Source: Actinomycetota bacterium (lineage in GTDB: Bacteria > Actinomycetota > Thermoleophilia > Solirubrobacterales > 70-9). From it: a stretch of 64,000 nt of DNA. Below the pieces are notes generated by a model. That model saw only the letters and a program-made list of their open reading frames with translations, ran no database searches and was not told the origin of the DNA. A program made the translations under genes and the position numbers. The DNA is taken from positions 124,001 to 188,000 of the forward strand of contig JAFDWB010000092.1 in NCBI GenBank assembly GCA_018268675.1. The letters run 5' to 3'. Positions 29,335 through 33,902 of this stretch are shown in pieces (the stretch's first letter is position 1; every line of letters starts with the position of its first letter).

Positions 29335-30375
29335 GTGGCGCGCAGCCGCCCGGTGACGATCGCCCTCGACGGGTTCGGGGCGGAGCAGGGTTTCGACGTA
29401 CTCGCCGAGGGCGCCCGCCGCGCCGCCGCCGACGGGATCGGGGTGCGCGTGTTCGGGCCGGAGCGCTCGCTGCGGCTGGCGGGGGTGTCGGGGATCGAGG
29501 TGATCCCGACCACCGAGTGGATCGGCAACGACGACGACCCGGTGCAGTCGGTGCGCGAGCGCCGCGAGGCCTCGGTCGTGCGCGCCGCCCGCGACGTCGC
29601 CGAGGGGAACGCGGCGGCGATGGTCAGCCTCGGCTCGACCGGGGCGACGATGGCAGCCGCCACCTTCGGCCTGCGCCGCCTCAAGGGGGTGCAGCGGCCG
29701 GCGCTGGCGGTGCGCCTGCCCTCGCCGGTCAAACCGGTCCTCTTCCTCGACGTCGGCGCCAACATCGAGGTCCGCGCCCAGCACCTGGTCCAGTTCGCCT
29801 TCCTCGGCGCCGCCTTCAGCGCCGCGGTGCTGGAGGTCCGCGAACCGACAGTCGGCCTGCTGACGGTCGGCGAGGAGGCGGGGAAGGGGCGCCCCGAGAT
29901 CGTCGAGGCGCACCGGATCCTCGCCGAGGCGCCCGGGGTCGACTTCGCCGGCAACATCGAGGGCGGCGACCTGCCGGAAGCGAAGGTCGACGTCGTCGTC
30001 ACCGACGGCTTCACCGGCAACGTGGCGCTGAAGGTGATGGAGGGCGCGGCGCGGACGCTGGCCGGGGCGATCTCCGACCTCGCGCACAAGAACGTCCTCG
30101 CGGCGGCGGGCGGGCTGCTGCTGAAACCTGCGCTGGGCGGCCTGCGCAAGGAGTTCGACCCCGACACGACCGGCGGCGCGATCCTGCTCGGGCTGCGCGC
30201 GGTGACGATCGTCGGGCACGGCTCCTCGGGCGCCGACGGCGTCGCCAACGCGATCCGCCTCGCCGCCCGCTCGGTCGACGTCGACGCGGTCGGGCGTACC
30301 GCGGCCCTGCTGCGCGAGGGCCACGCCGGGCGCGCCGCGCTGGCGGGCGACGCGGTCGGCGACGAAGCTGCGTGA
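29335..30375 (+). CDS. plsX: Phosphate acyltransferase PlsX
   Basis: Makes acyl-phosphate from acyl-ACP, the first step of the PlsX/PlsY route to phosphatidic acid. 346 residues with the family's IALDGFGAEQG opening, VSLGSTGATMAAATF, FLDVGANIEVRAQHLVQFA and VTDGFTGNVALKVMEG. It is co-directional with rpmF and acpP; GTG start. With FakA in the same block, exogenous fatty acids could also feed acyl-phosphate, but that is inferred. Confidence 0.96.
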   Translation: MARSRPVTIALDGFGAEQGFDVLAEGARRAAADGIGVRVFGPERSLRLAGVSGIEVIPTTEWIGNDDDPVQSVRERREASVVRAARDVAEGNAAAMVSLGSTGATMAAATFGLRRLKGVQRPALAVRLPSPVKPVLFLDVGANIEVRAQHLVQFAFLGAAFSAAVLEVREPTVGLLTVGEEAGKGRPEIVEAHRILAEAPGVDFAGNIEGGDLPEAKVDVVVTDGFTGNVALKVMEGAARTLAGAISDLAHKNVLAAAGGLLLKPALGGLRKEFDPDTTGGAILLGLRAVTIVGHGSSGADGVANAIRLAARSVDVDAVGRTAALLREGHAGRAALAGDAVGDEAA

Positions 30376-30385: not shown

Positions 30386-30631
30386 ATGGAGCGCGACGAA
30401 GTCATCGAGCTGGTCCGCGGGCATCTCGCCGAGGAGCTCGAAGTCGACCCCGGCAGGATCGAGGAGGGGACCCGCTTCCGCGAGGACCTCGAAGCCGACT
30501 CGCTCGACCTCTACGAGCTGGTGATGGAGCTCGAAGACCGCTACGGGATCAAGGTCACCGAGGAGGAGGCGACCCGGATCGCGACCGTCGGCGACGCCGT
30601 CGCCTTCGTCCTCGAGCGGGCCCCCGCCTGA
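30386..30631 (+). CDS. acpP: Acyl carrier protein
   Basis: 81-residue acidic helical protein. Ser39 in EADSLDLYELVMELEDRYG is the phosphopantetheine attachment site (consensus DSLD). Carries acyl chains for fatty-acid synthesis and for PlsX. The next start is 1 nt after the stop, so acpP and rnc are coupled, as in most bacteria. Confidence 0.97.
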   Translation: MERDEVIELVRGHLAEELEVDPGRIEEGTRFREDLEADSLDLYELVMELEDRYGIKVTEEEATRIATVGDAVAFVLERAPA

Positions 30632-30632
30632 G

Positions 30633-31373
30633 ATGTCGGACGGGCCGGCGGCCGATTTCGCCCCCGGGGGCGAGGCCGACGACCCCGCCGGGCGCGGCGC
30701 CGTCGCCGCGCTCGCCGCGCTGATCGTGGACCTGCCGGAGGAGCTCCGCTCCCAGGCGCTCACGCACTCCTCCTGGACCGAGCGCCGGGTCGACTCGTTC
30801 GAGCGCCTCGCCTTCCTCGGCGACAGCGTGCTCGGGCTGTCGGTCGCCGGGGCGCTCTACGAGCGCTTCCCCGACATCGCCGCGGGCGGCCTCACGAAGA
30901 TCCACAACCAGGCGGTGTCCGGGGTCTCCTGCGCGGCCGTGGGGCGCCTGCTCGGCGTGCCGGGGATGCTGCGCGCCAACGAGCCCGAGGGCGTCACCGC
31001 GGCGATCCCGGCGGAGGTGCTGCTGGACGGAGAGCGACCGCTGCCGGAGGCGACCGAGGCGCTGATCGGCGCCTGCCACCTGGCCTTCGGCTTCGAGCGC
31101 GCGGCGGCGGCCGTGGCGGCCGCGTTCGCGCCGCGGATCGAGCTCGCCGCGGAGACGCGGATCGACTTCAAGAGCGCTTTGCAGGAGCTTTTGGCGCGCC
31201 GCGGGGCGCGCGTAAGCTATGAGGTGACGGCCGCCACGGGCCCTCCCCATCGGCGAACCTTCGAGGTCGTGGCGATCGTCGATTCCGAGCGGGTGGGGTC
31301 GGGCGAGGGGCGCAGCAAGAAGGCGGCGGAGCAGGTGGCGGCGGAGGAGGCATTACGGGCTTTGGGTGGTTGA
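30633..31373 (+). CDS. rnc: Ribonuclease III with altered catalytic acids
   Basis: 246 residues, N-terminal nuclease domain (~25-165) and C-terminal dsRNA-binding domain (~180-244; SALQELLARRG, GEGRSKKAAEQVAAEEAL). The signature helix reads ERLAFLGDSVLGL where the family has ERLEFLGD; the second acid (E41 in E. coli) is Ala. The second metal helix reads PEATEALIGA, so D114 appears replaced by Glu while E117 is kept. E38 and D45 remain. RNase III matures rRNA and cuts dsRNA; this version may be less active or use a modified metal site. Position between acpP and smc is canonical. Confidence 0.92.
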   Translation: MSDGPAADFAPGGEADDPAGRGAVAALAALIVDLPEELRSQALTHSSWTERRVDSFERLAFLGDSVLGLSVAGALYERFPDIAAGGLTKIHNQAVSGVSCAAVGRLLGVPGMLRANEPEGVTAAIPAEVLLDGERPLPEATEALIGACHLAFGFERAAAAVAAAFAPRIELAAETRIDFKSALQELLARRGARVSYEVTAATGPPHRRTFEVVAIVDSERVGSGEGRSKKAAEQVAAEEALRALGG

Positions 31374-31517: not shown

Positions 31518-33902
31518 ATGTATCTGCGATCGATCACGATGAAGGGGTTCAAGTCCTTTCCCGAGCGGGTGAGCCTCGAGTTCTCGCCTGGCGTCAGCGT
31601 CATCGTCGGGCCGAACGGGTCGGGGAAGAGCAACATCACCGACGCGGTGCTGTGGGCGCTCGGCGAGCAGAGCCCGGGGGCGATCCGCGGCGCCTCGATG
31701 CAGGACGTGATCTCGGCGGGGGGGAAGAACACCGGGGCGCGGCGCGAAGCCCAGGTCGAGGTCGTGATCGACAACTCCGACGGGCGGGCGAAGACGGAGT
31801 TCTCCGAGATCGCGGTGGAGCGGCGCCTCGACCGGGGCGGCGAGGGCGGCTACCGGCTGAACGGGGCGCGGGCGCGGCTCGCCGACGTGATCGAGGTGCT
31901 CTCCGACACCAACCTCGGGCGCGAGATGCACTCGGTCATCAGCCAGGGCCGGGTGGAGTCGATCATCCACTCCAAGCCGCGGGAGCGGCGGCTTTTGATC
32001 GAGGAGGCGGCGGGCCTCGGCAAGCACCGCAAACGGCGGCGGCGGGCGGAACTGAAGCTGCGCGGGACGCGCGACAACCTCGATCGGGCGCTCGACGTCG
32101 AGCGCGAGGCGCGGGCGCGGCTGCGGCCGCTGAAGCGCCAGGCGCAGGCGGCCGAGATCGGGGCGCGGATCGACCGCGAGGAAATGGAGCTGAAGGGGCG
32201 GATCGTCTCGGAGGAGCTGCGCTTCGGCGCCGACCGGGCGGCCGCGGCGGCGAAGGCGGCGGCCGCCGCCCGGGCGACGCGGACGAAGCTCGAGGGGCAG
32301 CTCGCCGAGGTGAGCAAACGGCGCTCCGCCGCCGAGGAGCGCTTCGCCGAGCGCGACCGGGCGCGGACCCAGGCCTGGGGCGTGCTGACCAAACTGCGGG
32401 CCGAGTCGGAGCGGGTCGCGGTGCGGGTCGCCGGGCTGGCGCGGAGCGAGGCGGAGGTCGAGGCGCGCCTCGAGGCGCTGCGGGCCGAGCTCGGGCCGCT
32501 GACCCTGGACGTCGGCGGCGGCGACGCGCCGACCCAGCGGGCGCGGAAGCTGGAAGAGGAGCTGGGCGAGGTCGACGCGGGGCTGAAGTCGGCGCTCGAC
32601 GGCCTGGCGACGGCGCGCTCCGAGGACGCCACCGAGACTGCCCGCGAGCGGGCACTCGGCGAGGTGCGAGCGGGGAGCGAACGGGCGATCCGCCACGCGC
32701 GGCGGGCCGAGGGGCTGCTCGGCGAGCGCCACCGGGAGAAGATGCGGGCGCGCCTGGCGGGCGGCGAGGAGCTGCTGGACGACGTGCGGGCGGCGTTGGC
32801 CGCGGTCGACCAGGTCGGCAACGCGATCCGCGCCCGGGTCGAGCGGACCGAGTCGACCGTGGTGGGCAACGAGGGCGACGGCGACGAGATCGCCGACGAG
32901 CTGCGCGCCTGCTCGAAGCTCGAGTTCGAGCTGCAAGGGCAGATGCGGTCGGTGAGCGAAGAGCTGACCCAGGCCGAGGTCGAGGCCGCCCACCTCGGCG
33001 ACCGGAGGGCCGAGGCCGAACGGGAGATGGCGGCGATCGTCGAGAAGCTCGGCGAGGAGGTGCCCGCGGCGGAGATCGCGATGACCGAGGAGGAGCGCGC
33101 CGAGATCGACCGCAAACTGGGGCGACTGGAGCGTCGGCGCGCCCAGATCGGCCCGGTCAATCCGCTCGCCGAGCGCGAATACGAGGAGGCGCGCGAGCAC
33201 GTCGAGCAGCTGCAGGCGCAGCGCGAGGACACCGAGCGGGCGATGCGCGAGCTGGAGTCGCTGATCCGCGAGATCGACGACGAGATCGAGCGGGCGTTCG
33301 AGGAGACCTTCGAGGCGACCGCGAAGAACTTCGAGGAGATGGTCGAACACCTTTTTCCCGGTGGCCGCGGCAGGCTGCGGCGGGTGAACCTGCGGGCGGT
33401 CCGCGAGGAGGAGCAGGCGCCGGCGCAGGCGGAGGGGGAGGAGGCCGCCGAGAGCGCCGAGCCGGACCCCGACGAGGAGGAGCGCGACGAACGGGACGAG
33501 TTCGGGGTCGAGATCGAGGTCAACCCGGCGGGCAAGTCGACCCGCAAACTCAGCTTGATGTCGGGCGGCGAGAAGTCCCTCGTCGCGCTCGCCTTCGTCT
33601 TCGCCGTCTTCCTCGCCCGGCCCTGCCCCTTCTACATCCTCGACGAGGTCGAGGCCGCTCTCGATGACGCCAACATCGACCGCTTCCTTCAGTTGATCCG
33701 CCGCTTCTGCGACCGCGCCCAGTTCGTCATCGTCACCCACCAGAAACGCACCATGGACGCCGCCGACGTCCTCTACGGCGTGACGATGGGCGGCGACGGC
33801 GTCACCAAAGTCGTCAGCCGCAAGCTCCCCCGCGACGCCGCCGAGGACGAAGACGACCTCAGCGACGACGCCGGCCCCGGCCCCCTGAGCGCCGTCGCCT
33901 GA
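31518..33902 (+). CDS. smc: Chromosome segregation SMC protein, short and apparently hingeless
   Basis: ATPase that organises chromosomes with ScpAB. N-terminal head (1-~170): Walker A VGPNGSGKSNITDAVLWALGEQ and Q-loop region SVISQGRVESIIHSKP. C-terminal head (~600-794): signature LSLMSGGEKSLVALA, Walker B FYILDEVEAALDDAN, then VTHQKRTM. Between them is only ~430 residues of charged coiled coil; the ~150-residue Gly-rich hinge domain expected mid-protein is not seen, and the protein is ~794 rather than ~1,180 residues. An acidic insertion (~640-675) sits inside the C-terminal head. The frame is uninterrupted. ATG 31518 gives the normal MYLRSITMKGFKSF start. Confidence 0.9.
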   Translation: MYLRSITMKGFKSFPERVSLEFSPGVSVIVGPNGSGKSNITDAVLWALGEQSPGAIRGASMQDVISAGGKNTGARREAQVEVVIDNSDGRAKTEFSEIAVERRLDRGGEGGYRLNGARARLADVIEVLSDTNLGREMHSVISQGRVESIIHSKPRERRLLIEEAAGLGKHRKRRRRAELKLRGTRDNLDRALDVEREARARLRPLKRQAQAAEIGARIDREEMELKGRIVSEELRFGADRAAAAAKAAAAARATRTKLEGQLAEVSKRRSAAEERFAERDRARTQAWGVLTKLRAESERVAVRVAGLARSEAEVEARLEALRAELGPLTLDVGGGDAPTQRARKLEEELGEVDAGLKSALDGLATARSEDATETARERALGEVRAGSERAIRHARRAEGLLGERHREKMRARLAGGEELLDDVRAALAAVDQVGNAIRARVERTESTVVGNEGDGDEIADELRACSKLEFELQGQMRSVSEELTQAEVEAAHLGDRRAEAEREMAAIVEKLGEEVPAAEIAMTEEERAEIDRKLGRLERRRAQIGPVNPLAEREYEEAREHVEQLQAQREDTERAMRELESLIREIDDEIERAFEETFEATAKNFEEMVEHLFPGGRGRLRRVNLRAVREEEQAPAQAEGEEAAESAEPDPDEEERDERDEFGVEIEVNPAGKSTRKLSLMSGGEKSLVALAFVFAVFLARPCPFYILDEVEAALDDANIDRFLQLIRRFCDRAQFVIVTHQKRTMDAADVLYGVTMGGDGVTKVVSRKLPRDAAEDEDDLSDDAGPGPLSAVA

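Follow-up and report, generated by a model that had tools for sequence, protein, structure and literature searches.

The window, i.e., the whole stretch of 64,000 nucleotides that was analysed, comes from a draft genome, 4.2 Mb in size and split into 95 contigs, and carries an rnc gene encoding RNase III. The translation of its open reading frame reads FERLAFLGDS and PLPEATEALIGA. Matches above cut-off were obtained with the Pfam models PF14622, PF00636, and PF00035, Ribonucleas_3_3 and dsrm among them. The layout is that of class I RNase III, in which the nuclease domain is followed by one dsRNA-binding domain (dsRBD). With the NCBIfam equivalog model TIGR02191, however, the protein scored 151.7 bits, below the cut-off of 166.25. 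The features of the locus are collected in Table 1, where residues of the E. coli enzyme mark the corresponding places.

Table 1. Features of the rnc locus, in window coordinates.
Feature	Position	Strand	Basis or remark
plsX (FA_synthesis)	29335..30375	+	upstream of rnc
acpP (PP-binding)	30386..30631	+	acyl carrier protein gene; ends one base 5' of the rnc start codon
rnc, RNase III, 246 aa	30633..31373	+	ORF, Pfam, and predicted fold; nuclease domain 36-165, dsRBD 180-244
signature ERLAFLGD	30801..30824	+	alignment to E. coli; E57 (E38), A60 (E41 place, codon 30810-30812), D64 (D45)
A84, E65 place	30882..30884	+	alignment; non-acidic in 107/110 genomes of the order
R135, S110 place	31035..31037	+	alignment; spacing of the eukaryotic catalytic Lys
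E139 (D114 place) to E142 (E117)	31047..31058	+	alignment
A188, Q165 place	31194..31196	+	Ala in 104/109 readable genomes of the order
smc-type gene (SMC_N)	31518..33902	+	downstream of rnc

The predicted fold (mean pLDDT 88) gave its best matches with the RNase III of E. coli, T. maritima, and A. aeolicus, and mitoribosomal chains, Drosha, Rnt1p, and Dicer were found at lower ranks. Whole-model TM-scores to solved RNase III structures were only about 0.5, perhaps owing to a different placement of the two domains.

A separate observation concerns the smc-type gene beside rnc, which encodes 794 residues without a match to SMC_hinge. The smc genes downstream of rnc in L032 and L039 are likewise without such a match, and the smc ORFs of seven near relatives encode 812-826 residues. 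The hinge is present in L041, which belongs to another family of the class. When the whole window genome was searched at E 0.001, no match to SMC_hinge was obtained, as against a match in 10 of 14 control genomes. It would be very unusual for a chromosomal SMC to have no recognisable hinge, and the case merits separate study.

RNase III serves as a model of dsRNA nucleases that use two metals, and its key acids are said to include E41 and D114. When the window protein was aligned to E. coli RNase III, the residues E38, E41, D45, D114, and E117 corresponded to E57, A60, D64, E139, and E142, respectively. Two of the four classic acids of class I are absent, with Ala in the place of E41 and Glu in that of D114; D45 and E117 are the only ones retained. 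The preliminary description had read the signature ERLAFLGDS as bearing Ala (codon GCC) in the E41 place and had put Glu in the D114 place; both readings were borne out, the former by a gapless alignment. Its claim that the metal site would be changed is supported by the same alignment. It had also considered that a neighbouring acid might fill the vacant place. This was ruled out for E41 and D114 alike, the signature being ungapped and no adjacent acid fitting. The codon for A60 is GCC in the window, and each of the nine genes read from the same genus has either GCC or GCG, so that the Ala is not a base-call error. The loop near E100 aligns poorly, and no argument rests on it.

A class-wide search returned an RNase III homologue in 349 of 399 genomes. 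Residues were counted in 110 genomes of the same order (the group surveyed is probably Solirubrobacterales), 70 genomes from elsewhere in the class, and 70 outgroup loci. The order set was made up of 90 genomes aligned first and 20 more, picked to take in the most divergent; among the added ones, the sequence of L322 is truncated and that of L320 is irregular in the stretch directly before AFLGD. The outgroup loci are an uneven sample, being the relatives nearest to the query (80 kept of 130 returned).

Every genome of the order (110/110) has Ala in the E41 place. D45 is kept in all 110 and E117 in all 109 that are readable, and the D114 place is occupied by Ser in 80 and by Glu in 29 of these 109. 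The E38 place is non-acidic in 42/110. Elsewhere in the class E41 is kept in 70/70 genomes and E65 in 68/70, and the D114 place holds Ala (46), Asp (11), Asn (10), Glu (2), or Gly (1). The families outside the order that mostly lack D114 are f5, f7, f8, f9, and f12 (e.g., L114-L143 and L170-L204). In the outgroup loci, E41 is kept in 70/70 and D114 in 60/70. D114 is thus less universal than E41. Thus the alignment to Thermoleophilia RNase III, proposed earlier as a check, revealed a change at E41 that is order-wide rather than private to the window genome, and a loss of D114 in most of the class.

In an RNase III tree built by a quick method, the 90 order rows formed one clade (SH-aLRT 99), so that a single origin of the change at E41, at the root of the order, is the simplest reading. 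The residues found in the other families of the class suggest that variation at D114 predates it. When 396 Actinomycetota genomes (358 of them outside the class) were searched for the pattern ERLAFLGD, RNase III matches were confined to the order and three other matches were not RNase III; the pattern needs E38 and F42, caught 3 of 14 sampled genomes of the order, and is silent on other forms. Phyla beyond Actinomycetota were covered through the outgroup loci only.

The mutants of the E. coli enzyme allow these changes to be put in context. According to Table 1 of PMC8708148, E41A and D114A are each only weakly active in vitro when Mg is in excess and show lowered dsRNA binding, and the same source gives E117K, E117A, and E117Q as inactive. 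In the E. coli product complex, as described in PMC9291653, E41 and E117 hold MgA, D45 and E117 hold MgB, and D114 makes no direct contact with Mg. The counterpart of D114 in EhRNaseIII, on the other hand, does bind Mn (PMC5357909).

R135 of the window protein precedes position 114 by four residues and E117 by seven, and in the predicted model the helix bearing these two positions starts at residue 136, directly past R135. Position 110 is Arg, Lys, or His in 107/109 members of the order, the other two having Ser, as against 3/70 genomes from elsewhere in the class and 0/70 outgroup loci. In EhRNaseIII, K112, D116, and E119 have the same spacing as 110, 114, and 117 (PMC5357909). According to this source the Lys is conserved in eukaryotic RNase III; in KpDcr1 it touches the nucleophilic water, in Rnt1p the phosphate of the product, and its replacement by Ala reduces cleavage by HsDicer and KpDcr1. 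In human Drosha (RTKTLADLLE) a Lys lies beside the paired stretch, where the HMMER alignment is gapped. By analogy, Arg 110 may be doing the job of the eukaryotic Lys. A link between the Arg and the loss of E41 is beyond statistical testing, because both changes fall on one branch. Eukaryotic RNase III (Rnt1p, KpDcr1, Dicer, Drosha, and EhRNaseIII) resembles the order proteins in having a basic residue seven before the E117 place (K112/E119 in EhRNaseIII), but the residue is Lys where the window protein has Arg, and the counterpart of E41 is kept (E51 in EhRNaseIII). The eukaryotic enzymes have a second residue, an Asn, and the likeness is drawn for the Lys place alone.

We compared the protein with the known bacterial types. 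Like the class I enzymes (E. coli Rnc; M. tuberculosis 2a11), it has the nuclease domain and dsRBD, the smc and acpP neighbours, D45 with E117, and the fold. Unlike them, the window protein and its order show Ala for E41, Glu or Ser for D114, mostly Ala for E65, Ala for Q165, and Arg at 110. In the acids it comes closer to Mini-III. All ten Mini-III genes read from Clostridia and Lactobacillales genomes carry LAYxGDA and [AS]TGxE, i.e., Ala at E41 and Thr at D114, with D45 and E117 kept; the whole-length profile match of Mini-III was weak (probability 15%, E 0.0017) and was used for the motif register only. The acid set Ala, Asp, non-Asp, Glu is common to 10/10 Mini-III and to 109/109 readable members of the order. 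Mini-III cleaves dsRNA and loses its activity upon the mutation E106Q (PMC5141509, PMC4357697), and we read E106 as the E117 place. Hence the same kind of change does occur in enzymes of proven activity, an outcome that the preliminary description had named as weighing against its own reading.

The differences from Mini-III are also distinct. Mini-III consists of the nuclease domain alone, whereas the window protein has a dsRBD; it has Thr in the D114 place where the order has Ser or Glu, and its Arg is at 111 and not at 110. Descent from Mini-III was ruled out, as Mini-III rows and order rows formed separate clades, each at 100/100. With a dsRBD in the window protein and Mini-III in a clade of its own, the likeness is most simply convergent.

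The engineered E. coli mutant E38A/E65A/Q165A, named 'bacterial Dicer', retains E41 and D114 and gives longer products (PMC9291653). The window protein is like it in having Ala at the E65 and Q165 places, but it keeps E38 and does not have the triple Ala. In seven of the 110 order genomes (L205, L207, L209, L211, L212, L213, and L237) Ala occurs at all three places together, and by sequence these are a natural match of the engineered enzyme.

The number of RNase III domains per genome was determined for 158 order genomes of at least 85% completeness. A match was obtained in 149, of which 148 had exactly one; nine had none, and the second domain of G218 lies at a contig edge. As a control, the same model found both rnc and Mini-III, two matches per genome, in 10/10 Clostridia and Lactobacillales genomes. 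A second rnc or Mini-III in the order was rejected on the strength of the 148/149 genomes with a single domain. The check for a second rnc suggested in the preliminary description likewise found none, a search of the window genome with two Pfam models giving one match. For nine genes of the genus the median dN/dS was 0.23 for the nuclease domain and 0.14 for the dsRBD (36/36 pairs), i.e., both domains are under purifying selection.

The stems that flank 16S and 23S rRNA are classic substrates of RNase III, and they may serve folding too. When 26 genomes were queried for 16S, 14 gave the full gene (12 from the order, 2 from elsewhere in the class, none from the window assembly). Stems joined the 16S flanks (23-46 pairs) and the 23S flanks (34-73 pairs) in 14/14, including 12/12 of the order. 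The stem search was local and was run on turned loci; every score exceeded the highest obtained from 15 single-base shuffles, with narrow margins for the 16S stem of L271 (49.5 vs 47.0) and the 23S stem of L289 (63.0 vs 54.5). Both sides of pairs 4, 6, 7, and 12 of the 16S core were changed in at least one genome of the order (G081 or G118), a count made over 11 of the 14 genomes, the cores of L270, L275, and L278 being missed with their stems present.

Insertions were seen in the 23S genes of two genomes, one of 743 bases in G139 (L295) and three of 739, 756, and 812 bases in G085 (L296). None gave an Rfam intron match at the gathering score. Their ORFs look like LAGLIDADG homing endonucleases, for which we take them by motif. 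The possibility that the insertions are spacers cut by RNase III was rejected, since they resemble inserts that encode homing endonucleases.

Taken together, the single RNase III of the order most likely (a probability of about 0.7) still acts as a dimeric endonuclease on dsRNA and opens the stems of the 16S and 23S pre-rRNA with a remodelled, Mini-III-like site. In such an enzyme the metal known as MgB in E. coli would remain bound to D45 and E117, and the MgA site, formed there by E41 and E117, would be weakened or lost. Arg 110, one helical turn before 114, could keep in place either the scissile phosphate or the water that attacks it, much as the catalytic Lys does in the eukaryotic enzymes. 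The resulting acid set would be that of the dsRNA-cutting Mini-III, and the protein would be expected to be active but to differ in its metal requirements. An active nuclease is favoured because D45 and E117 are invariant, Mini-III provides a precedent, the stems are kept, and there is a single RNase III domain. Counting against it are the weak activities of E. coli E41A and D114A, the part of E41 as a ligand of MgA, and the Mn-binding counterpart of D114 in EhRNaseIII; the role of the Arg is called into doubt by the two members with Ser and by the place of the Arg in Mini-III. That the enzyme is slower, as was suggested from the sequence at the outset, or differently dependent on metal, is possible. 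A more specific proposal, which we hold as tentative, is catalysis with one metal, the MgA site being gone and Arg 110 substituting for it. A class I enzyme would then have independently reached Mini-III-like acids together with a eukaryote-like basic residue.

The loss of two of the four catalytic acids could also mean that the protein is a pseudo-nuclease, whose dsRBD binds dsRNA or pre-ribosomes while another RNase opens the rRNA stems. The mitoribosomal chains among the fold matches, which we take to be mL44, lend this some colour, for mL44 is a mitoribosomal protein derived from RNase III in which the catalytic acids were lost. The weak single mutants of E. coli point the same way (PMC8708148), and the stems may act in ribosome assembly uncut. 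In a protein of the mL44 type the acids would be freed from constraint, but neither D45 nor E117 varies within the order, although substitutions of E117 kill the activity of the E. coli enzyme (PMC8708148). In addition, Mini-III is active with the same acid set. We therefore regard a pseudo-nuclease as unlikely. The earlier suggestions of mainly a binding protein, or of rRNA processing by another route, lose ground accordingly, as the pre-rRNA stems persist with paired changes and no second RNase III domain was found in the window genome.

E. coli can live without RNase III, and if the enzyme had become nearly dispensable in this order too, its active site might be drifting, with a residual slow activity of minor importance. 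The variation of D114, E65, and E38 within the order, and of D114 in the rest of the class, would agree with such decay. However, one and the same residue at E41 throughout the order, the fixed D45 and E117, the basic residue at 110, the purifying selection within the genus, and the retention of the gene in nearly all genomes of high completeness make it improbable. Least credible of all is an error of assembly or alignment, or a proper second rnc elsewhere in the genome. Many of the assemblies are drafts, nine genomes gave no match, and L320 has the irregularity noted above, but the signature recurs, ungapped and identical, in separate assemblies, including the one-contig G017, G139, G298, G356, G364, G093, and G103. 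The single match in the window genome speaks against it as well, and the order-wide pattern already contradicts it.

Among the literature matches listed, judged by title and the start of the abstract and with most subscription journals outside the scope, nothing dealt with this variant or with the RNase III of Thermoleophilia or Solirubrobacter. By dispensing with E41 and D114, mostly in genomes with a single RNase III domain, the order provides a natural test of which ligands the enzyme needs. Its RNase III proteins also offer variants for the processing of dsRNA, and they warn that an enzyme without one of its catalytic residues is not necessarily dead.
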